Source: an uncultured Myxococcales bacterium (GTDB lineage: Bacteria > Myxococcota > Myxococcia > Myxococcales > Myxococcaceae). Taken from it: a DNA stretch of 44,637 nt. The DNA is taken from contig CAIWFK010000834.1 of assembly GCA_903911905.1 (NCBI GenBank), positions 1-44,637 on the forward strand, in the 5' to 3' direction. Shown one piece after another: positions 527-44,284 of this stretch. The translations under genes were made by a program, and so were the position numbers. The first letter of the stretch is position 1; the number at the start of each line of letters is the position of its first letter. The notes under the pieces were generated by a model that was not told the origin of the DNA, searched no databases, and saw only the letters and a program-made list of their open reading frames with translations.

Positions 527-1243
527 TTGAGGCCGAACCGGACGGGCACGTCGAAGCACTGGCCTGCCGCTGCGTGAGGGAAGGGCACGGCCTCGGGCAA
601 TACGCATTCGAGGGTTGCGGCGTCGAGTGACGGCACGCCGCTGGGGTGGCGCACCTCGGCGCGCGCGAGGCCGCCGGTGGCGTCGAGGCAGAAGCCCAAC
701 TGGACTTCGCCCGTCTGGTGGAAGCGTCGGGCGGTCGCGGGGTAGCAGCGGGCTGCGGCCGCCACGAGGCGTTCGTGGAGCAGCGCTGCGACGTCGACGG
801 TCGGAGTGGGGGGTCGGCGCCGGCCCCGGAGCCGCGGGCCCAGGGGGACCATCGGTGACGGGCCCCGGGGAGGCCGAGGTCGGCCCGGGGTCGGCGCTGG
901 TGGACCCCGGCTCGTCGGCCGCGGTGCTGGTGACGGGGGCGTCGGCCTCGGTCGCCATCGACGGCGTCGTCATGGCGGTCGGGCGGCGCACGGTGCGCGC
1001 CGTGGCCACTCGCGCGCTGGCACCGGCGGCCTGGACAGCCGCGGCCGGTGCCTCATGGCGGTGGCTGGAAGGGAGAATCGAGACCCTCGTCCAGGCTGGC
1101 GAGTGCGCGACCTTCGGCGGCGCGGAGACGGCGGCCAGGACTCCCCGAACGTGGTGTACGGCGCCCAGCACGGCCGCGACCAGGCCCAGGTGCACGAGCA
1201 CCGAAAGGCAGACGGCTGAGAACCAGGGGCGGCGGTGAAGCAC
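523..1243 (-). pseudogene. TonB-like energy-transducing protein, frameshifted at a C6 run
   Basis: The first part (GTG at 1243) encodes a short basic N-terminus, one membrane segment (about residues 9-30) and a Pro/Ala/Thr-rich linker, as in TonB. The second part, in another frame (readable 523-852), is a typical TonB C-terminal domain with GEVQLGFCLDATGGL and the ending PVRFGLK. The frames meet at a run of six C on the minus strand (808-813 on plus). Removing one C gives a continuous protein of about 239 residues through PTPTPTVDVAALL. TonB couples the inner-membrane proton motive force, through ExbB/ExbD, to outer-membrane receptors. The break may be a real mutation, transcriptional slippage or a homopolymer error. 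The 3' end overlaps the Gre-like start. Confidence 0.7.
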
Positions 1244-1562
1244 GGAGTCGATCTACACCGCACTCGGCCGCGCGTGCGAGCACCCATTGGGCGCGTGGCG
1301 CGTCACCGCGCGGGGTTGGTTTCCGTGCAGGGGCGCAAAGCGGACGGCAACGCGCGGTACGCCACGGAGTACGGGCATCGAGCCGCAACTCACCGATGGT
1401 GCGCAGGCGGAGTGGCAGCCCAACCCGCCGGTGCGCGGCGGAGTCAAAGCCAACCGATGGTGCGGGCCTCGAGTGGGAACGCTCCGGCGGTCCGCGTGTC
1501 ACGAGGCAGATCACCGAGGGTCGCGCGTCGAGTCGGAGCCCACCAACGGTGTCGACCTGGTC
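1244..1562. other. intergenic spacer, no convincing gene
   Basis: This 319-bp spacer lies between the HopA1-like gene and the TonB-like gene, both on the minus strand. Open frames crossing it (for example minus 1253-1453) have weak starts, no ribosome site and no family resemblance. The main content is the degenerate dyad repeat array listed separately. I looked here for a RiPP precursor peptide because of the kinase/HopA1 pair upstream and saw none I could support. Confidence 0.6.
1376..1557. repeat. degenerate ~30-bp tandem array with ACC-N3-GGT dyads
   Basis: Six head-to-tail units of about 28-32 bp carry a variable part resembling GAGTNNNANCC followed by a hyphenated palindrome ACC-N3-GGT. 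The dyads start near 1391 (CACCGATGGTG), 1423, 1451 (AACCGATGGTG), 1482, 1512 and 1541 (CACCAACGGTG), spacings 32, 28, 31, 30 and 29. The uneven spacing does not keep a reading frame, so the array is unlikely to be coding. About three helical turns between dyads would put bound proteins on one DNA face. Fainter unit-like sequence may extend upstream to about 1280. Confidence 0.6.
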
Positions 1563-2309
1563 TCAGCCGCCCAGACCGGCAGCCACCGCTTCGACCGCAC
1601 GCTTCCACCCGAAGCCGTCGGCCACGTCCGCTCGCGAGGTCCCCGTGGCGGTGGGCAGGCCCAGCGGCCCGCGCACCGTTCCATGAGGCTGACCGCGCGC
1701 GACGAAGAGCTTCGGGTTCGCCGCGAGGAAGGCCTCGAGCACCTTCACCACGCCGCCCAGGTCGTTGACGCCCACGTCGAGCACCGCGGCGTCAGCCTTG
1801 TCGAAATCGAGCGGCGAATTGCTCACCGCCAACGAGAAGCGCAACTGGTCGCCCAGCTTCGAAGCGAAGGTCTCGACCAGTGAACTGGCTCCCGTGTACG
1901 GGAACGAGAGGAAGAACTTGGTGAAGTTCTGGCCCACCACCACCGGGCCCTGGCCTCCATTGAGCGTGAAGCGGTGCGGGTACAGGTTCTCGCGGGCGCG
2001 GGGCAGGCGCAGCGCCACCTGGTCTCCGGGCTTGGCGTCACTGGGCACGTACTGGCCCGGCTCGTCGACGAAGACGCTCAGGCGCCCGTCGCTGATGAAG
2101 GCCCACTCGCCGCCGCCCTTCACCAGTCGAAAGCTCCAGTCCCACCCGGTGGCGCCGTGCGTGCACGCCGTCAGGTGTGCGACGAAGCCCGAATCACCGC
2201 TGGCCCGCGAGAGGTCGGGCGCCTCACCCGTGCGCAGGCTGAAGCGCTTCGAATGGAACTGCCGCACGCGCGGGTCGCTCGAGCCGGCGGTCTGCCCCTT
2301 CGCGCTCAT
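1563..2309 (-). CDS. HopA1-family-like protein (probable partner of the adjacent kinase)
   Basis: A 248-residue cytoplasmic protein without signal peptide or membrane segments. The second half follows the HopA1-effector-family pattern as I know it: a strand-rich LYPHRFTLNGGQG region (about 105-120), then FSLAVSNSPLDFDKADAAVL (about 160-180) matching the family's lysine/valine strand plus DAAVLYV element, then a Pro/Gly-rich segment and a final helix. In thioviridamide-type and class V lanthipeptide clusters, a HopA1-like protein and an APH-like kinase together phosphorylate and eliminate Ser/Thr in precursor peptides. The ATG at 2309 overlaps the kinase stop as ATGA, supporting a functional pair. 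No precursor, leader peptidase or cyclase gene was seen nearby, so the substrate is unknown. The family call is from pattern memory, not a search. Confidence 0.6.
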   Translation of the reverse strand: MSAKGQTAGSSDPRVRQFHSKRFSLRTGEAPDLSRASGDSGFVAHLTACTHGATGWDWSFRLVKGGGEWAFISDGRLSVFVDEPGQYVPSDAKPGDQVALRLPRARENLYPHRFTLNGGQGPVVVGQNFTKFFLSFPYTGASSLVETFASKLGDQLRFSLAVSNSPLDFDKADAAVLDVGVNDLGGVVKVLEAFLAANPKLFVARGQPHGTVRGPLGLPTATGTSRADVADGFGWKRAVEAVAAGLGG

Positions 2310-3361
2310 CGCTGCGAATCTCCCCAGAGCACCGAGGGCCAGTCCGCAGGCTTGCCGAGCATGTCGAGCGCGTGGCGCGCGACGCCCAGGGCCCGCGCAT
2401 CGAGCACCTGCTCGTAGTGCGAGATGCCGTAGACCGAAATGAGCAGCGCGGCGCCGACCCACCGCACCACCCGGTGCTGAAAGCCCACGTCGAGCGCGAA
2501 GCCTGCCTCGCGCGCCTGCGCGTAGCCGGCGAGCAGTTCCCTGGCGAAGCCCTCGAGCGTCTGCCGCGCCAACACCTCGCTGCGGTGCTCGGGCGCCAAC
2601 CACCCCAGCACGTAGTCGCACAACAGGCTGCCCAGGTCGCGCGCGGGGTCGCCCCAGAAGCTCAATTCCCAGTCGAGGAACACGATGTGCGGCTGACCGC
2701 GCGGGCGGGCTACTCGCAACAGGTTCGCCTGGCGCAGGTCGCCGTGCAGCAGCGCCGAATCACCTTCACGCAGTTGCTGGTCGCTGAGCGCCTGCAGCCC
2801 CTGCATCGCGGGCCCGTCGGCCTGCACCTGGGCGAAGAAGTCGATGCCCACGTGCGAGAGCCGCGAATAGAAGTCGGGCCGCATGCGCAGGAAGCATTCG
2901 AGCAGGTCGCTCTCGTCACGAAACGCGTCGGCCAGCGCGTAGCGCGAACGGCCTTCGCGAGACATGCGGTGCAGGAAGCCCAGCGCATTGCCGACCTGGC
3001 GCGCCAGGGGCCCCGGGTATTCCTGCGAGCGGCGGTGGTAGTGGTGCAGGGTCTCGCCGTTGGAAATCCAATCGAGGGCCAGCAGGCCGTGCGCGGGGTC
3101 GAAGGCGTGCACGTGCGGCAATTCGAGCGGGCTCTTCGGCATCGCCGACAGGGGGCCCACGCGCTCGAGCACCGAGCCTTCGCGCAGCACGCCCACGTTC
3201 CCCGGGCCGTCGGCAATCTTCACCAGGAAGCGCTTCTTGCCGGCCTTGCAGACGACGGTGCGGTTCTTCGATGGCGGCGGCGAGCTGATGCTGGTGTCGC
3301 GCGAGAGCCCCAACGCGCCCAGGCGGGTGTCGAGCTCGTCGTCGGTCAGGGGCGCACGCAT
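2306..3361 (-). CDS. aminoglycoside-phosphotransferase-fold kinase paired with HopA1-like protein
   Basis: A 351-residue APH/choline-kinase-fold protein. Visible elements are the nucleotide-binding lysine in RFLVKIADG (K48), a downstream glutamate (LREGSVLERV), the Brenner catalytic loop HGDLRQAN (206-213) and the metal-binding LDWE (229-232). All key catalytic residues are present, so it should be an active phosphotransferase. Its gene overlaps the HopA1-like gene by 4 bp, the arrangement of kinase/HopA1 pairs acting as split Ser/Thr dehydratases in several RiPP pathways. The upstream barrel gene ends 45 bp before its ATG, so it probably belongs to the same transcript as the DUF1232 and barrel genes. 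Alternatives are a small-molecule or sugar kinase. Confidence 0.75.
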   Translation of the reverse strand: MRAPLTDDELDTRLGALGLSRDTSISSPPPSKNRTVVCKAGKKRFLVKIADGPGNVGVLREGSVLERVGPLSAMPKSPLELPHVHAFDPAHGLLALDWISNGETLHHYHRRSQEYPGPLARQVGNALGFLHRMSREGRSRYALADAFRDESDLLECFLRMRPDFYSRLSHVGIDFFAQVQADGPAMQGLQALSDQQLREGDSALLHGDLRQANLLRVARPRGQPHIVFLDWELSFWGDPARDLGSLLCDYVLGWLAPEHRSEVLARQTLEGFARELLAGYAQAREAGFALDVGFQHRVVRWVGAALLISVYGISHYEQVLDARALGVARHALDMLGKPADWPSVLWGDSQR

Positions 3362-3406
3362 GCTGCGGGCCGCATTCGAAACCAGAAACCGCGCGCTGAC
3401 AAACTC

Positions 3407-4096
3407 TTAGAAGCTGTAGCCGACTGCCGCCGTCAAGCGCTGCTCGCCCAGCGGCACCAGCTCGGCAGACAGGTCGAAGCCCTTCGGCAGACCCACGACC
3501 AGCCCGACGCCGAACTGGTAGTGGTACAGGTCGGTGCCGACGGTGCCGAGCGTGAAGACGGGGCCCCCGAAGGCCCGCGCCGCCACGTATGGCGTCACCC
3601 GCTCGAGAATCGTGTAGCCCGCGACCACACCCGCCCGCACGTCGAGCGCCCGGTAGTCGGTCTGCATGGCGCTGAACGAGAGCGAGCCCGACAGCTGCAC
3701 GAAGGGCCACCACTTCGCCTGGTCGAGCACCAGGTACGACGCGGCCACGCCGACGGTGCCGCCGCCTCCCTGGGTCAGGTCACCCAGGTGTGCGCGGAAG
3801 AGCCCGCCCGCCGAGAACTGCAGGCTCCAGGCCCTGGTGGCGCGCCATTCGAACGAGCCGCTGACCGCCATCTGCTGAAGCCCGAGGTGCGCTTCGCCGA
3901 CCACCAGCGTGGTGCGGAAGACGCCCCAGCTGGCGCCGACGTGGAACGCGGGCGCGTCACCTTCGTGGCCGGTGCAGCGTTGCGCGATGCCCGTCGGACC
4001 GATGGGCGGCGAGATGCCTCAGGCCCTCGCATCGCGCGGAAAGAAGAGCGCGAGCAGGGTTCCACAGAGCACGACGACGAAAGCGAGGGCCTTCAC
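3407..4096 (-). CDS. outer-membrane beta-barrel protein with an in-frame UGA after the signal peptide
   Basis: A GTG at 4096 overlaps the DUF1232 stop (GTGA) and starts a clear Sec signal peptide (KALAFVVVLCGTLLALFF, cleavage after ARA). The next codon is UGA (4021-4019). The same frame then stays open for about 203 codons: a short segment starting GISPPIGPTG with one Cys (QRCTG), then amphipathic strands such as WSLQFSAGGLF and a final aromatic strand LTAAVGYSF, as in small outer-membrane barrels. Reading the UGA as an amino acid gives a 229-residue protein. The mature part has a single Cys, so a Cys or Sec at the UGA would supply a pairing partner. A hairpin follows the UGA (listed separately). 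Otherwise this is a nonsense-mutated gene, or a downstream GTG (about 3904) gives an unexported fragment. Function beyond barrel is unknown. Confidence 0.6.
3989..4007 (-). promoter_or_regulatory. candidate SECIS-like hairpin downstream of UGA 4019-4021
   Basis: On the minus strand, counting the U of UGA as 1, bases 15-18 (GCCC) pair with 30-33 (GGGC) and bases 20-22 (UCG) pair with 26-28 (CGA), with one A-C mismatch between the two helices. The apical loop is G23-U24-C25. In E. coli fdhF the SelB contacts are, as I recall, the loop G23 and U24. The stem is short and GC-rich DNA makes hairpins easily, so this is suggestive only. Confidence 0.35.
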
Positions 4097-4350
4097 CTGG
4101 CAGAAGGTACTGCGTCGACCACCACTTCGCCACGCTGTGTGAGCTGGGCATGCCGTGCCACGTCGCGCGAGACGAAGGCCACCACCGCAGCGATGACGCC
4201 CAGGTCGTCGAGCCACCCCAGTACGGGAATGGCGTCGGGAATGAGGTCGAAGGGCATCAGCGCATAAGCGGCCGCCACGAAGACCAGCGAGCGACGCCAA
4301 CGGGGCACGGCCGCGTCACGCAGATACCGACCCAGGTCGCGAAGGTGCAT
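4093..4350 (-). CDS. DUF1232 (YkvA-type) small membrane protein
   Basis: An 85-residue protein with the DUF1232 core: a hydrophobic segment (SLVFVAAAYALMPFDLIPD, about 21-39), the signature LIPDAIPVLGWLDDL (36-50) and a second hydrophobic helix (GVIAAVVAFV). Members of this family are small inner-membrane proteins without an established biochemical role. The ATG at 4350 is 66 bp from the divergent PPK2 ATG, so the intervening stretch probably holds back-to-back promoters. Its stop overlaps the GTG of the barrel gene, making it the first gene of the minus-strand run that continues into the kinase and HopA1-like genes. Confidence 0.85.
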   Translation of the reverse strand: MHLRDLGRYLRDAAVPRWRRSLVFVAAAYALMPFDLIPDAIPVLGWLDDLGVIAAVVAFVSRDVARHAQLTQRGEVVVDAVPSAR

Positions 4351-4416
4351 GGCTGATCGACGCTCGCGGTGGATTTCGATTTCAACGCACACACAACCTT
4401 GAGCAAACTCGCGACC

Positions 4417-5193
4417 ATGGCCAGGAAGAAGCAGCGCTTCACCGACAAGAGCCCGACCGCCTACGAATTCGACGTCTTCAAGCCGGGCACCCTCGACCTG
4501 TCGGGGGTGCGGCTCGACCAGACCGTGGACAAGAAGGCCGCTGAAGCCGAGGTGCTCGACCTGCAGGAAAAGCTCTTCGAATTGCAGGTGCGCTACTGGC
4601 TCGAGAAGCGACGCGCGGCCTTCGTGTTCGAGGGGTGGGACGCGGCGGGCAAGGGCGGCGCCATCAAGCGCATGACCGCCTTGATGGACCCGCGCGGGTA
4701 CAAGGTCTGGCCCATCGCCGCGCCCGGAGAAGAAGAGCGCGCGCACCACTACCTCTACCGCTTCCAGACCCGCATGCCGCCCCGCGGCACCATCGCCATC
4801 TTCGACCGCAGTTGGTACGGCCGGGTGCTGGTCGAACGCGTCGAGGGCTTCTGCACCGAAAAGGAATGGCAGCGCGCGTACGACGAAATCAACGCCTTCG
4901 AGCGCATGTACACCGACGACGGCGTCACGGTGCTCAAGTTCTTCCTGCACATCGACAAGGCGACGCAGTTGCAGCGCTTCAAGGACCGCGAGCGCGACCC
5001 GGTGAAGAACTTCAAGATTGGCGACGACGACTGGCGCAACCGCAAGCGCTGGAGCGAATACGAAGAGGCGTACCAGGACATGTTCGACCGCACCCACCGG
5101 CCCGACGCGCCGTGGGTCATCGTGCCCGCCAACGACAAGCGCGCCGCACGACTGACGGTGCTCAAGGCGGCCATCGCCGCGCTCGATGAGTGA
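4417..5193 (+). CDS. ppk2: polyphosphate kinase 2 family protein
   Basis: A 258-residue P-loop kinase. Residues 73-81 are the Walker A motif GWDAAGKGG, and IFDRSWYGR (128-136) is the conserved Walker B region of PPK2 enzymes; the basic lid follows (FKDRERDPVKNFK, then WRNRKRW). PPK2 proteins transfer phosphate between polyphosphate and nucleoside mono- or diphosphates, commonly making NTPs from polyP. The length is that of a single-domain enzyme. The frame could also start at GTG 4369, but the ATG at 4417 gives the usual short N-terminus and leaves room for a promoter opposite the DUF1232 gene. The end overlaps the next gene by 8 bp. The subclass (ADP- or AMP-phosphorylating) cannot be settled by eye. 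Confidence 0.92.
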   Translation: MARKKQRFTDKSPTAYEFDVFKPGTLDLSGVRLDQTVDKKAAEAEVLDLQEKLFELQVRYWLEKRRAAFVFEGWDAAGKGGAIKRMTALMDPRGYKVWPIAAPGEEERAHHYLYRFQTRMPPRGTIAIFDRSWYGRVLVERVEGFCTEKEWQRAYDEINAFERMYTDDGVTVLKFFLHIDKATQLQRFKDRERDPVKNFKIGDDDWRNRKRWSEYEEAYQDMFDRTHRPDAPWVIVPANDKRAARLTVLKAAIAALDE

Positions 5194-5746
5194 GCCCCGG
5201 TCGGTCGGCCCGCGTTGGCGCATCACCCGCGACGACGGCGCGACGCTCGAGCTGACGCGGTCGACCTCGACCGAATGGCGGCGCGCGGTGGCCTCGGCGC
5301 TGGTGGGGCTGGGGTGTGAAGCGGGCGCGGCGGGGCTCTTCGTGGTCACGCCCGACACGCTCACGCTGGTCTTCTGGCCGCTGGCGGCAGGGCTGGTGCT
5401 GGTGGGCGTGCTGGCCTTCTTGGGCGCGGTGCGCTCGGTTCGACACGCCGCGTACGGGCTGACGCTGGTCTTCGAGGCCCGGGGCGTTCGCGGGGTGCCG
5501 CTGCCGCGCGGGTTGGGGCTCGAGCTGGGTTCGACGGTGACTGCCAGCACCGGCGAGGTGGCGCGGCTTCGGCTGCACCGGGCGCCGCACCCGCCGTTGA
5601 CGCTCTCGTTGCTCGAGGTCGAGCTGCGTGACGGGCGGCGGCTGCAGGGGCCCGAGGTCGCGTGGCCGGCCAGCGAGGCCGACCCGCTCGAATCGGTGGC
5701 GCGCACGGCGGCGAAGGTCGCGGACCTGATCTTGATCATCGACTGA
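5186..5746 (+). CDS. hypothetical membrane protein with two membrane segments
   Basis: A 186-residue protein I do not recognise. A basic N-terminal stretch is followed by two adjacent hydrophobic segments, roughly residues 34-55 (ALVGLGCEAGAAGLFVV) and 58-80 (TLVFWPLAAGLVLVGVLAFL), then a soluble C-terminal half rich in beta strands and Arg, ending in KVADLILIID. This looks like a two-helix inner-membrane anchor with a cytoplasmic PH-like domain, but that is inference from pattern only. Its ATG lies inside the last codons of ppk2 (8-bp overlap), so the two are very likely co-translated. Confidence 0.7.
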   Translation: MSEPRSVGPRWRITRDDGATLELTRSTSTEWRRAVASALVGLGCEAGAAGLFVVTPDTLTLVFWPLAAGLVLVGVLAFLGAVRSVRHAAYGLTLVFEARGVRGVPLPRGLGLELGSTVTASTGEVARLRLHRAPHPPLTLSLLEVELRDGRRLQGPEVAWPASEADPLESVARTAAKVADLILIID

Positions 5747-38327: not shown

Positions 38328-38384
38328 CGCTTGCGCCACATCACCCCCGCGCCTTCCGGCACGGGTTCTGCTTTGACCTGCCGC

Positions 38385-40262
38385 ATGGACCCCCTTGCGC
38401 CGTACTTCCTCGGAGCCTTCGCCGAGAACAACGACTTCTTCGAGAAGACCGTCATCGAACTCGTGCGCGACCACGTGTTCTGGCGCAGAAATTTCCACCC
38501 CGAAGACCTGCCGCCCATCGGCACCGCCGACCAGTATTCGCCCGAGTACCTCGAAGGCGTGGCCCGCACCCGCCACGAGCTGCACCAACTGACCGCCGCG
38601 CTCAAGCGCTCGGTGCCCTTCTTCCACCCGCGCTACCTGGGGCACATGGTCAGCGACCTGTTGCTGCCCGGGCTGGTCGCGCAGTTGGTCACCACGCTCT
38701 ACAACCCCAACAACGTCGTCGAAGACGCGGCGCCCGTCACCGTGCAGTTGGAGCTCGAGGTCGGCCGGCAACTGGCGACCATGCTCGGCTTCGCCATCGA
38801 CCCCGCGAAGGTGCCGTGCGCGCTGGGCCACCTGACCAGTGGCGGCACCATCGCCAACGACCAGGCGCTCTTCCTGGCGCGCGCGGTGCGGCTTCTGCCG
38901 CTGGCCATGCGCGACGCCCTCGACTCGCTGGGCCGCCGCCCCGAGACGATTTCGCCGAAGCTCGACGCAGACGACTGGGCGCACCTGAACCTCCCGACCC
39001 GCGACATTCTCGACCTGGCCGACACCTTCCACCGCGACCCCGAGCTGGCGAAGGCGCTGGCGCACACCCGGGTCGAGCACGTGGGCCTGGGGCACTTCTG
39101 CGCGAAGCACCCGCTGGTCGCCAACCTCGCGGTCATCGCGCCCGGCACCGCGCACTACTCGTGGAAGAAGGCGCTGCGCCTGCTGGGGCTGGGCGCCGCC
39201 AACCTGGTCGAACTGCCCACCCGTCAGGCCCGCGCCGATTCGGCCGCGCTCGACACGCTGTTGCAGACCTTCGCACGCGAGCGCCGGCCGGTGCTGATGG
39301 TGATGGGGGTGTACGGCACCACCGAGTTCGGCACGCTCGACCCGCTGCACGAACTGGCCGCGCTGCGCGGTCGGTCGGTCGACTTCTGGCTGCACGTCGA
39401 CGCGGCGTGGGGCGGCTACCTGCCCTCGGTGTTCCGCGACCCGAAGGGGAACCTGCGACCGCGCGAGGACCTTCGCGCCGAGTTCGCGCACTTTCCCTCG
39501 CAGCGCGTCTACGACACCACTGCGGCGCTGCCCCTGGCTGATTCCATCACCGTCGACCCGCACAAGCAGGGCTTCGTGCCCTACGGCGCCGGCTGCTTCG
39601 TGGCGAAGGACCGCCGGGTCTTCGACCTGGTGCTGACCGACGCGGCCTACGTCTTCCATGGCGACGAGCTGGGCGAGCAGCGCTACCGCTCGCCCGGGCG
39701 CTTCAGCCTGGAAGGCTCGCGGCCCGGCGCGGCGGCGGCAGCGTGTGTGGTCAACCACCGCGTGTTGCCGCTGGACTCGGCGCACTTCGGCCGGCTCATC
39801 GCCCGCTCGGTGCACACCTGCGAGACCTTGTCCGACGCGTTGCCCGCCTTCGCGGCGCGCCTGGCCCCGGTGGCGACCCTGGCCATGCCCTTCGACCCCG
39901 ACTGCAACCTGCTGGTCTTCGCGGTCAACCCGCTGGGCAACCGCTCGCTCAAGGCGGCCAACGCGTTCGGCCAGCGGGTGATGGACGCGATGAGCGTCAC
40001 GCCCGCGCGGCCGGTGCAGTTGCGTGAATTCTTCGGTTCCTGCACCACCGTCTCGCTCGAGCACCTGAGCGCCGACAGCGCCGAATTGTTCCGCGCGCTG
40101 GGCCTCACCGAGGTCGACGACGACGGCGTGTTCCTGCTGCGGCACACGCTGATGAACCCGTGGTTGCTCTCTCACCCCACCGAAGGTGACGGCAGCTACC
40201 TCGACGCGTACCTGGCCTTCCTCGAGCGCACGGTGCACGAGCTGGTCACCGTGGTACGGTGA
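38385..40262 (+). CDS. PLP-dependent group II decarboxylase-family protein
   Basis: A 625-residue fold-type I PLP enzyme of the glutamate/aromatic-amino-acid decarboxylase family. The PLP lysine is in SITVDPHKQGFVPYG (Lys394). Upstream are LTSGGTIANDQALFLAR, which holds the phosphate-binding region, and FWLHVDAAWGGYLPS with the ring-binding Asp and Ala. It is longer than typical GAD (about 460), with extra N-terminal and C-terminal segments. Substrate specificity cannot be read by eye; tyrosine, aspartate, glutamate or a secondary-metabolite amine are possible. The start is ATG 38385. It overlaps the next gene by 4 bp (GTGA), suggesting coupling. Confidence 0.85.
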   Translation: MDPLAPYFLGAFAENNDFFEKTVIELVRDHVFWRRNFHPEDLPPIGTADQYSPEYLEGVARTRHELHQLTAALKRSVPFFHPRYLGHMVSDLLLPGLVAQLVTTLYNPNNVVEDAAPVTVQLELEVGRQLATMLGFAIDPAKVPCALGHLTSGGTIANDQALFLARAVRLLPLAMRDALDSLGRRPETISPKLDADDWAHLNLPTRDILDLADTFHRDPELAKALAHTRVEHVGLGHFCAKHPLVANLAVIAPGTAHYSWKKALRLLGLGAANLVELPTRQARADSAALDTLLQTFARERRPVLMVMGVYGTTEFGTLDPLHELAALRGRSVDFWLHVDAAWGGYLPSVFRDPKGNLRPREDLRAEFAHFPSQRVYDTTAALPLADSITVDPHKQGFVPYGAGCFVAKDRRVFDLVLTDAAYVFHGDELGEQRYRSPGRFSLEGSRPGAAAAACVVNHRVLPLDSAHFGRLIARSVHTCETLSDALPAFAARLAPVATLAMPFDPDCNLLVFAVNPLGNRSLKAANAFGQRVMDAMSVTPARPVQLREFFGSCTTVSLEHLSADSAELFRALGLTEVDDDGVFLLRHTLMNPWLLSHPTEGDGSYLDAYLAFLERTVHELVTVVR

Positions 40263-42748
40263 CGCTCGTGCTTTCCCTGATGCTCACCTTCGCATTGGCC
40301 GGTTCGCCGACCCCGCGCGAAGTGCTGCAGGGCATCGACCAGCAGGAAACGCTGAACCTCGAGCTCGAGGCGCATTTCGACCAGGTCTGCAGCGCGCTCA
40401 AAGCGGGCCGGCACGACCTGAGCGGGCTGGTGGGCCCGGGCGTGCGCTTCCCCATCGACGAATTCGTCCAGGTCCCTTCGTGCTCGCTGCGTGCGCTGTC
40501 GGTCGGCAAGGTGGTCGACGACACCATCGCCCTGCGCGTGTTGTGGGACCTCGACGGCCGCGACGCGCGAGGGGCCCGCCGCTCGGTGCGAGCCGAGAGC
40601 GACGGCGAAGTCGTGCGCGAAGGCAAGGGCTGGAAGCTGAGCCGGCTCGACACGTCGAACGCCCATCGGGTCGAGCGCGATGCGCCGCGCTTCGTCGAGC
40701 GCGCCGCCGAGGCAGGGCTGGTGTTGCCTCAGGTGGTGACACCCATTTCGCCAGCGGCGTTCCTGTCGAGCGGGTTGGCGATTCGCGACGTCGACGGCGA
40801 TGGTATCGCCGACGTCTTCGTCATCGATCGCCAGACGCTGTATCTCTACCGTGGCAAGCCGGGCCTGCACTTCGCGCCGCCGGTAGCCATCGCCAGGACC
40901 GGTGGCGACACCATCTTGAGCGGCGTCTCGCTGGGCGACCTCGACGGCGATGGCGACCCCGACCTGGTGCTCACGACCTGGCGCGACCGGCCAGTACGTC
41001 TGTTCCGCAACGAGCACGGCACCTTCGTCGAGGCGGGCAAAGTTGGGCGCGGCGGGCAGCACCAGGGCACGGTGCTCAGCGACCTCGACGGCGACGGGAA
41101 GTTGGACCTGGCGGTGGTCAGCTACCCGCTGGGCTACGCGATTCCCTCGAGCTTCCTCAACGCCGACAACGGCGACCCGCCCGAGCTGTGGCTGGGCAAC
41201 GGCGACTTCACCTTTCACCAACTGCCTCTCCCCGCACGTGTCGCGAAGCACCATTGGAGCTTCGGCGGGGTGGCCGCCGACTTTCTCCATCGAGGCGGAA
41301 TGCAGCTCTACGTCTTCAACGACTATGGCGTGAAGGACCTCTACGTGCTCGACCGCGACGGCGGGGTCAGTGAGGTCTCGGCGCAGTACGGGCTCAACGA
41401 CCCGGGCGGCGGCATGAGCGCCGACCTGGGCGACGTCGACAACGACGATCGCGTCGACCTCTACGTCGCCAACATGTTCAGCAAGGCCGGAACCCGTATC
41501 GCCAACGGCGTCGGGGCCAGGGTGCCCGAGGCGACGCGCGACCTGGTCTCGAAGTTCGTGCGCGGCAACACGCTCTTCCTGGGTCAACCCGATGGCGGGT
41601 ACGCCGACCATGCGGTCGACCTCGAGGTGCACCGCGGGCTGTGGAGCTTCGCGTCGCTGCTGGCCGACGTCGACAACGACTCGCGGCTCGAGGTGCTCAT
41701 CGCCAACGGCTTCATCAGCGGGAAAAAACGAAAAGACCTTTGAAGTGTCTATTGGCGCCAGGTCCTGGCGCAATCAGTACTCTCGAGCAACCCCTCGCCG
41801 GCTGACGAGGCGCTGGCGCTGCCCCCGAGCAACATGACGGCGAGCAGCGAAGACAGCATGTCGGGCTTCGAGCCCAAGCGGCTCTTCGCGCGCGGCGCTG
41901 ACGGCCGGTTCGACGACTGCGCCTTCGTCGAGGGCTTCGACTCGCGCCTCGATGGCCGCAGCCTGGTGGCCGCCGACCTCGACGGTGACGGTGACCTCGA
42001 CCTGGTGATGACCACCCGCAACGGGCCGCACCTGCAGTTGTTCGAGAACGTGGGCGCGCCGGGCCAGGCCTTCGAGCTCGAATTGCACGCCGTGCACGGG
42101 CACCCCGAGGCCGACGGTACGGTGGTGCACGTGGAAGGGGTCGGCGCGTTCCCGGTGGTGCTCAACCGCGGGTACTCGAGCTCGACCGACCCTGCGGTGC
42201 ACGTCGGCCTGGGCACCCGGCAGAGCGCGCGGGTGCGGGTTCAGTGGCGCAGCGGCGTCACCGAAGACGTCGGGGTCGTCGCCGCAGGAGCGCGGGTGCG
42301 CGCGACGGAGGGCGCTGGCAAGGTCGAGCCGGTACGGGCGTTCACCGAAGGCCGTCGCCTTCCCGCGCGGCCGTTCCCCGCGAAGGTGAGCGACCTGCCC
42401 CTGCCCAGGGGGGAAGGCCCGACGGTGGTGCAGTTGTTCATGCAGTCGTGCAAGCCCTGCCGTGAAGAGGTGCCCGCGCTCAACGCGCTCTCGAAGAAGG
42501 GGAAGGTGCACGTGTTCGGTCTGGGGCTGCACGACGACAACGCGCTGCCGAAGGTGCGCGCGGCGATGAAGATGACCTACGAGGTCGCGCCGTTGCCCGA
42601 GCCGGTCGCCGAGGCCTTCGAGAGTGGTGGTGGTCTCGCGCTCCCCACGCTGCTGGTCTACGGCGCCGACGGGGTGTTGATGCGCGTCATCTCGGGCGCA
42701 GGCAACCTTCCGCCGGTGCTCGACGAGCTGAAGCTCGACGCTCGCTGA
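40259..42748 (+). CDS. secreted FG-GAP/ASPIC (CRTAC1-like) plus thioredoxin fusion with in-frame UGA
   Basis: GTG 40259 (GTGA overlap with the decarboxylase) begins a signal peptide (LVLSLMLTFALAG). An N-terminal domain of about 150 residues is followed by FG-GAP/VCBS calcium-binding blades (VRDVDGDGIADVFV-like units: IRDVDGDGIADV, GDLDGDGDPDLV, SDLDGDGKLDLA, GDVDNDDRVDLY). Codon 495 is UGA (41741-41743), after SGKKRKDL. The same frame continues SVYWRQVLAQSVLSS, a conserved element of this family, then another blade (ADLDGDGDLDLVMTT), an ASPIC/UnbV-like region (HVGLGTRQSARVRVQW) and a TlpA-like thioredoxin domain with CKPC (731-734). Full length would be 829 residues. A strong hairpin follows the UGA. 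It is either a selenoprotein or a nonsense-mutated gene; a downstream restart at ATG 41834 would lack a signal. Confidence 0.65.
41751..41774 (+). promoter_or_regulatory. candidate SECIS-like hairpin downstream of UGA 41741-41743
   Basis: Counting the U of UGA as 1, bases 11-20 (AUUGGCGCCA) pair with 26-34 (UGGCGCAAU) with one bulged G, giving nine pairs. The five-base apical loop is G21-G22-U23-C24-C25. The loop has G in its first two positions and starts 17 bases after the UGA, within the 16-37 window of bacterial SECIS models as I recall them. The fdhF element of E. coli has loop G23-U24. Confidence 0.45.
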
Positions 42749-42787: not shown

Positions 42788-44284
42788 ATGCGTCGACTGG
42801 CCTTCGTGACCTCGTTCCTCGTGGCCTGCAGCGCCTTCGCGCAGACGAAGCCTGCGCCGGGTGGCTACACGCCGTCGGTGACGTACCAGTTGCTCGACGT
42901 GGCGCTCGACGCCACGGCGACCGAAATCGAACGGGTCGGAGCACGGCCCACCATCAACTCGCGCGAGCTCTTCCTGGCCACCGCGGCGCTCTACGACGCG
43001 TGGTCGCTCTACGACGCCGACGCGCAGCCCTCGCACCTCAGCGGCGTGGCCCGTCGCCCGGTCAACGAGCGCACCGACGAGGCGCGGGCTCGCGCGATGA
43101 CTGCGGCTCTCGAGACGGTGTTGCTCGACCTCTACCCTTCGCAGAAGTCGCGGCTCGAGGCGGTCTTCGCGGCGCGCGGGCTCAAGGCCGCACCGGCGAA
43201 GGGCTCGCCCGAGGCGTGGGGCGTGGCGGTCGCGCAGGCCATCATCGGGCAGCACCAGCACGACGGCGCCAACCAACTGGGTGACGAGCGCGGCTCGAAT
43301 GGCACGCCGTACGCCGACTACACGTTCTACACGCCGGTGAATGGCCCGCAGAAGGTCATCGACGAAGACCGCTGGCAGCCCATTCCCTTCACGCTCGACT
43401 CGGGCGAGGTGGTGCGGCCCAATTTCCTGACGCCGCATTGGTACCGCGTGAAGCCGTGGGCGCTCGACTCGGCCTCGCAGTTCCGCCCGCCGCCCCCGCC
43501 GAAGTACGGCAGCGAGCAGCTCAAGCAGGAGGTGGACGAGGTGATGGCGCTCAACGCGAACCTCACCGCCGAGCAGAAGGCCACGGTCGAGTTCATGCGC
43601 GACGGCCCGCGCTCGACGGGGCAGTCGGGGCACTGGCTGCGCTTCGCCCAGGCCGTGTCACGTCGTGACCAGAACGACCTGTCGCGCGACGCGAAGCTCT
43701 TCTTCGCGGTGGGAGCGGTGTGCTTCGACGCCTTCATCGCCGCGTGGGACGCCAAGCGCTACTACGACTCCTCGCGCCCGTGGACGCTGGTGCGGGTCAT
43801 GTACAAGGGCCAGAAGGTGCGCGGCTGGCTGGGGCCCGGCCAGGGCGTGGGGCTCATTCCCGCCGAGCAGTGGGCGCCGTATTCGCCGGCCTCGTTCGTG
43901 ACGCCGCCCTTTCCCGGGTACGTCAGCGGGCACAGCACGGTCAGCGGCGCGGCGGCGCGGGTGCTCACGTTGTTCACCGGCTCGGACCGCTTCGATGACG
44001 AAGACGCGCGGCGCGCCGGGCAACTGACCGAGAAGGGCGCCACCCACGCGGCGATGCAGTCGGTCGACGGCAAGCCTTCGACTGCCAGCGAGAAGAGCTG
44101 CGACGTGGTGTTGCCGTTGCCCACCTTCACCGCGACCGCGGCGATGGCGGGGTGGTCGCGCGTGCTGGGCGGGTACCACATTCAAGCCGACAACCTGGCC
44201 GGCCTCGAGCTGGGGCGGAAGGTGGCCGATGCGGCGTGGCCGAAGCTGGAAGCGCGCTTCGGCGTGAAGAAGAAGAAGAACTAG
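42788..44284 (+). CDS. secreted vanadium-haloperoxidase-like (PAP2-fold) protein
   Basis: A 498-residue protein with a signal peptide ([15 protein letters not shown]) and the complete PAP2/vanadium haloperoxidase signature: K-x6-RP (KRYYDSSRP, 323-331), [11 protein letters not shown] (SGH at 380-382) and SR-x5-H (SRVLGGYH, 457-464). Relatives are vanadium-dependent haloperoxidases and acid phosphatases. Its length and the spacing of the motifs fit the bacterial haloperoxidase-like group; whether it binds vanadate or acts as a phosphatase is not decided by sequence. ATG 42788 follows the fusion gene by 39 bp. The stop overlaps the convergent atpG stop in a CTAG tetranucleotide. Confidence 0.85.

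Follow-up and report, generated by a model that had tools for sequence, protein, structure and literature searches.

An FG-GAP beta-propeller followed by an ASPIC domain is found in CRTAC1 (murine structure 9etn), and a thioredoxin domain with a CxxC motif is found in TlpA, ResA and DsbE (CcmG; structures 1jfu, 1st9 and 2b1k), which are recharged by membrane donors of the CcdA/DsbD type. Both parts were present in a single plus-strand gene of the 44,637-nucleotide (nt) contig CAIWFK010000834.1 from an uncultured Myxococcales bacterium (assembly GCA_903911905.1), the whole of which is referred to here as the window. Codon 495 of this gene, an in-frame TGA, is almost certainly read as selenocysteine (Sec, U) when charged tRNA-Sec is available, since SelA and SelB are encoded in the genome and a hairpin of the bacterial selenocysteine insertion sequence (bSECIS) type, covarying across the family, lies at the proper distance behind the TGA. 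The family profile matched CRTAC1 with an E value of 3.7e-44, but the match stopped before the thioredoxin domain, the family adding to the CRTAC1 plan a Sec-bearing helical insertion and the C-terminal thioredoxin. Compared with TlpA, ResA and DsbE, the thioredoxin domain is here appended to the C-terminal end of a large propeller protein, and Sec lies outside the CxxC, unlike in the UxxC and UGC selenoprotein forms of this fold.

With the bacterial selenoproteins of thioredoxin fold described in the accessible sections of PMC13188914, the family shares an in-frame UGA, a bSECIS and a predicted dependence on SelA, SelB and tRNA-Sec. According to the same sections, nearly all selenoproteins have Cys homologues, whereas none was found for the family described here. 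NHLRC2 likewise possesses a thioredoxin-like domain and a beta-propeller, but the latter is an NHL propeller, and no Sec is named in the accessible part of PMC6107167. Table 1 of PMC13188914 (2026; 119 prokaryotic selenoprotein families and subfamilies) contains no FG-GAP, ASPIC or propeller family, the terms FG-GAP, propeller, integrin, CRTAC and UnbV are unmentioned in its main text as far as accessible, and no selenoprotein of FG-GAP, propeller or CRTAC type is named in the corresponding parts of PMC9312934, PMC12013277, PMC5029168 and PMC2398784. In NCBIfam 20.0, no model spanned the eight family members scanned. Literature linking selenoproteins with FG-GAP, ASPIC, CRTAC1 or VCBS held, at the level of titles and abstracts, no description of the family and only a few unrelated matches, while S9 Table of PMC4807772 (Planctomycetes selenoproteins) might hold a member. 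The family was thus not found in the catalogue and databases searched.

In-frame TGA codon and SECIS-like hairpin

From its GTG start, the gene ran for 494 codons to the TGA, its sole internal stop, and then for 334 further open codons to a terminal TGA at nt 42746-42748 (Table 1). Because a selenocysteine codon resembles a stop, standard gene calling cuts such a gene in two. Protein searches of 195 genomes of the same phylum returned 15 long homologues in 14 genomes, one genome having two, and all 15 held the TGA at the Sec position, with no other stop before the protein end, in the context D-x-TGA-S-x-Y/F-W-R or a near variant. The TGA column was invariant in a 14-row alignment (A1) and in a 22-row alignment (A2), the rows spanning four phyla, and none of the rows examined had TAA or TAG in place of the TGA in this column. 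The ratio of nonsynonymous to synonymous substitution rates was below 0.5 both upstream and downstream of the TGA in the four close pairs for which both sides were compared; purifying selection acts on both sides of the codon.

A pseudogene or a base-calling error in the window assembly, which belongs to a fragmented draft genome, has a virtually negligible probability; it was ruled out by the same TGA in homologues from four phyla, amounting to dozens of genes of independent genomes, and by the selection on both sides. An alternative genetic code, with TGA specifying Trp or Gly, was disfavoured, as TGA also terminates this gene and recoding is generally limited to a single codon per gene. One family member, L171, contained three TGAs in frame; two lay 21 and 25 model positions past the Sec site (UAEAU) and represent either additional Sec residues or signs of a damaged copy.

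The TGA might also be a true stop, yielding a propeller-only protein and a second protein restarting at the ATG at nt 41834, perhaps as a selenium-controlled switch. This ATG, 30 codons past the TGA, opens a frame of 304 amino acids, and a gene caller would report tandem split genes. However, the stretch from the TGA to this ATG includes one of the best-conserved parts of the protein (codons 495-509, mean pairwise identity 60%) as well as the covarying hairpin, and neither TAA nor TAG takes the place of the TGA in the examined rows, which together make a true stop quite improbable.

The limits set for a bSECIS in PMC13188914 are a loop of 3-9 nt with G in the first two positions, a stem of 4-16 base pairs, a spacing of 16-37 nt and a minimum free energy of at most -7.5. 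The window hairpin, with loop GUC, a spacing of 18 nt and -11.1 kcal/mol, falls within all of them, and so did those of 52 of the 57 distinct Sec members, compared with 25% of synonymous recodings and with 10 of the 48 rows without Sec. The five members outside the limits were L026 and L052, whose energies were just short, both genes of L050, and L173. Within the window gene, an equally good hairpin at the same distance was formed for 6 of 808 other codons.

Forty-eight Sec members of the Y/F-W-R type aligned without gaps from the TGA onward, and their stem columns 15-21 and 25-31 formed standard pairs in 91.8% of cells, a value falling to 28-66% when the stem partner was slid by 1 to 3 columns. 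Five of the seven stem pairs varied on both sides, as many being reached in none of 500 shuffles. The Arg codon covaried with the residue four codons on, the combinations being CGC-GCG (Ala), CGT-ACG (Thr), CGA-TCG (Ser) and AGG-CCT (Pro), and where TGC (Cys) replaced the Arg codon it paired with GCA. The protein residues after the TGA follow the RNA pairing.

Selenocysteine machinery

The window genome encoded SelB (310 bits, cut-off 242) and SelA (548 bits, cut-off 268). SelB scored above its cut-off in all 14 family genomes versus 123 of the 181 others of the phylum (p 0.006), and it was present in every genome that holds one of the seven Sec loci from outside this phylum. In a sample of 392 genomes, whose label as Planctomycetota rests on L053 only, SelB at E 1e-60 was observed in 100 of the 116 family genomes versus 136 of the 276 others, and in 82 of the 89 genomes with a TGA-holding match among those listed versus 154 of the 303 others (p 5e-14). 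ARAGORN predicted a tRNA-SeC in 13 of the 14 family genomes of the window's phylum, that is, in all except the window's. In two genomes (L206 in G101 and L207 in G102), a second tRNA-Sec-like sequence, GGGCTTCAAAACC, was rejected by ARAGORN, a proper tRNA-SeC being located elsewhere in the same genome.

Domain organization and predicted structure

In the read-through protein, Pfam FG-GAP repeats flanked the TGA on both sides (FG-GAP_3, E 3.5e-32; FG-GAP, E 3.1e-18) and were followed by UnbV_ASPIC (E 9.7e-10), both domains being above their cut-offs and in the order that defines a CRTAC1-like protein. An AlphaFold2 model built from 16 sequences had a mean predicted local distance difference test (pLDDT) score of 77, and its propeller superposed on murine CRTAC1 with a Z score of 39.7 and a root-mean-square deviation of 2.8 over 443 residues, spanning residues 142-686. 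The stretch containing helix 495-507 had a modest pLDDT of about 64.

The thioredoxin domain of the window protein was weak in Pfam (AhpC-TSA, E 0.024 and 15 bits, cut-off 26; Redoxin, 13 bits, cut-off 26.6) and matched dsbE of NCBIfam below the cut-off (E 3.1e-5); two relatives, L053 and L051, exceeded both the AhpC-TSA and Redoxin cut-offs. The family profile matched TlpA (1jfu, E 2.5e-17) and ResA, and the domain alone, in a low-confidence model, retrieved thioredoxins in Foldseek with E about 3e-5. Judged from the CKPC motif, the profile match and Foldseek, it is a predicted TlpA/ResA-like thioredoxin. Both of its cysteines were invariant in alignment A1, as was P796, which was taken as the cis-proline. 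The signal-peptide-like N-terminus of the window protein and lipobox-like starts in several relatives, all judged by eye, suggest that the protein is exported or secreted.

Table 1 Features of the predicted selenoprotein gene in the window
Feature	Position (nt)	Strand	Remarks
Whole gene, FG-GAP propeller / ASPIC / thioredoxin selenoprotein	40259..42748	+	829 amino acids with putative Sec495
Signal-peptide-like N-terminal stretch MTLVLSLMLTFALAGS	40259..40306	+	Judged by eye
Alpha+beta domain N-terminal of propeller	40313..40678	+	Codons about 19-140; model secondary structure; no Pfam match
CRTAC1-like beta-propeller, DxDxDG-type calcium loops	40682..42067	+	Codons about 142-603; Pfam, model
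Sec495 (TGA)	41741..41743	+	First residue of predicted helix 495-507 inserted in propeller
SECIS core stem-loop	41755..41771	+	Stem 41755-41761 with 41765-41771, loop GUC; lower stem may reach 41742-41784
UnbV_ASPIC domain	42116..42295	+	Codons 620-679; Pfam and genome-wide search
C-terminal TlpA/ResA-like thioredoxin domain (predicted)	42401..42745	+	Codons 715-829
CKPC active-site motif	42449..42460	+	Codons 731-734

Distribution of the family

Scanning the named genome contigs with the window protein alone returned no relative. An alignment-based scan of the same contigs was dominated by generic CRTAC1 proteins, its counts outside the phylum thus not being prevalences; among the matches listed were loci of Planctomycetota (L049, L053 and L116), Acidobacteria (L128 and L050) and Verrucomicrobia/Akkermansiaceae (L051 and L052), all of which also carried one TGA per gene. 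The Planctomycetota sample contained a family match (E 1e-70 or better) in 116 of its 392 genomes, some of them lacking Sec, and most rows among the matches listed had one TGA. Propeller, ASPIC and thioredoxin constitute the normal architecture of a widespread and conserved family. The first-pass annotation of the window had noticed the three parts in one frame, which the Pfam domains and the TlpA/ResA profile match confirmed, and had regarded their fusion as unusual; with 15 genes in 14 of 195 genomes and members in further phyla, it is no one-off. At the acidobacterial locus L050, two family genes were arranged in tandem (614-3163 and 3177-5594); both contained a TGA (TDLU and DDLU), and both lacked the Y-W-R motif and a thioredoxin domain.

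Sec-less relatives and proposed function

At the Sec column, the 12 close loci without Sec (L054 and L159-L169) possessed, overall, Q, N, N, R, H, R, D, E, E, E, E and S. No Cys, and hence no Sec/Cys pair, was observed at this position among the 12; such pairs are common among selenoproteins but no requirement. Searches based on them would miss a family in which, as here, no Cys form was found. The residues D, N, S, E, Q, H and R may be what the helix start tolerates once the chemistry is gone. In 11 of the 12 loci the CxxC or the entire thioredoxin domain was absent as well; a CxxC was present in 46 of 57 Sec rows versus 1 of the 12 Sec-less loci (p 4e-6, kinship uncorrected). This joint absence of Sec and CxxC fits a relay from Sec to CxxC.

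Taken together, these data favour, with a probability of about 0.6, a secreted Sec enzyme whose selenium is re-reduced by its own thioredoxin domain. Sec495 would lie at the N-terminus of a short helix, a position favouring the selenolate, within an insertion of the calcium-dependent CRTAC1-like propeller, and would serve as the catalytic nucleophile on an oxidized or oxidizing substrate outside the cytoplasm (peroxide, sulfoxide or disulfide). The oxidized selenium would then be reduced via a selenenylsulfide with the CxxC of the TlpA/ResA-like domain, and a CcdA/DsbD-type electron donor in the membrane would recharge this domain in turn. On balance, the family probably represents a new class of secreted selenoenzymes with a calcium beta-propeller as scaffold; Cys would be unable to replace Sec in them, and loss of Sec would lead to a polar non-thiol residue and decay of the thioredoxin partner.

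The possible Sec residue mentioned in the first-pass annotation is now strongly supported by the conserved TGA, the covarying SECIS-like hairpin, SelA and SelB, and tRNA-Sec in the relatives; of the two roles proposed there, that of an extracellular redox enzyme gained ground and that of a disulfide-controlled adhesin found no specific support. FG-GAP propellers do occur in adhesion proteins, but no adhesin partner or anchor was identified, and a Sec that is conserved at the predicted start of a helix and linked to a CxxC is costly and does not resemble a structural disulfide, making an adhesin devoid of enzymatic activity highly improbable.

Alternatively, Sec495 may be real but act as a ligand or modulator of a metal or cofactor of the propeller, the TlpA-like domain serving maturation, e.g. 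metal loading. TlpA/ScoI-type thioredoxins act in metal-site assembly, DxDxDG-type metal loops are numerous in the propeller, Sec branches without a thioredoxin domain exist, and the lack of a Cys form among the 12 Sec-less close members would be odd for a plain thiol-type enzyme. However, no conserved metal-binding set was identified around Sec, and a redox couple would explain the loss of CxxC in 11 of the 12 loci no less well; a metal-related role was thus considered unlikely.

Several observations weigh against the secreted Sec enzyme with its own thioredoxin reductant. The pLDDT of the thioredoxin domain varied by block from about 30 to 77 in the full model (31-60 in the second half) and was 61.6 for the domain alone. 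L169 retained the CxxC without Sec, and 11 of the 57 Sec rows (the two L050 genes, L116, L151 and L172-L178, L171 not being among them) had no CxxC-bearing thioredoxin domain in the stretch examined, the domain therefore not being essential to all Sec forms; L151 and L173 were incomplete matches. In a tree from which the Sec region and the thioredoxin domain, as well as near-identical or repeated rows (L022, L044-L048, L129, L130, L145 and L156), had been left out, there were only three independent Sec changes, with CxxC co-changing in 2.6 of 3 pairs on average (sign test p 0.25); the tie between Sec loss and CxxC loss is suggestive, not significant. The window hairpin alone was not rare, as 673 of 5000 synonymous recodings folded as well, and the case for a SECIS therefore rests on the family. 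Seven of the 89 TGA-holding Planctomycetota genomes (G349, G428, G471, G484, G508, G552 and G264) had no SelB at E 1e-60, being either incomplete assemblies or carriers of decaying genes. Searches of the window's own assembly with Rfam (150 of 2132 candidates scored), two patterns and a model built from the relatives (150 of 16240 scored) yielded no tRNA-Sec, the matches of Rfam and the relatives' model falling in a cluster named tRNA-Ser by ARAGORN, bar one at tRNA-Lys; an assembly gap is the likely cause, because the draft (907 contigs) has a completeness of 92% and a tRNA-SeC was predicted in each of the other 13 family genomes of the phylum. Finally, among open reading frames (ORFs) called greedily around 32 family loci other than that of the window, there was no conserved neighbour hinting at a substrate, none being common to more than four genomes.

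One branch of the Planctomycetota sample (L116, L174, L175, L176 and L178) had no thioredoxin domain and a U-x-C motif, PDGU[TAN]CLW, and may accomplish the same chemistry in a single domain, with a built-in stand-in for the partner thiol. As a candidate for a stand-alone thioredoxin, one CxxC ORF was located near the thioredoxin-bearing L044, and none was located near L050 or L116, which lack the domain.

If the proposed enzyme is real, the bacterial selenoproteome would gain a large family that occurs in four or more phyla, often with more than one copy per genome. Its members would be common exported selenoproteins in Planctomycetota as well as in the window's phylum, and would carry Sec on a scaffold, the beta-propeller, that is unnamed in the catalogue PMC13188914. 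The family would expose families without a Cys form as a blind spot of discovery by Sec/Cys pairs, offer testable chemistry for CRTAC1-like proteins, and correct gene models now ending at the TGA.

Neighbouring genes

The gene upstream (nt 38331-40262, plus strand) encoded a pyridoxal-dependent decarboxylase similar to tyrosine decarboxylase (TIGR03811, E 1e-91, below cut-off). Its stop and the selenoprotein start overlap by four bases (GTGA), an arrangement that suggests coupled translation of the two genes. A conserved operon was rejected for lack of a neighbour common to more than four genomes around the 32 other family loci. The gene downstream (nt 42788-44284, plus strand) encoded a vanadium-chloroperoxidase-like protein (VCPO_2nd, E 5.2e-16; PAP2, E 5.6e-9), which is possibly linked in function to the selenoprotein; a 57%-identical gene adjoins the family gene of G102 and was observed beside no other. 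Elsewhere in the window genome, a second ASPIC gene (L001, G000:C322:2767-2973) had a 776-amino-acid frame without a stop and fell outside the Sec branch.

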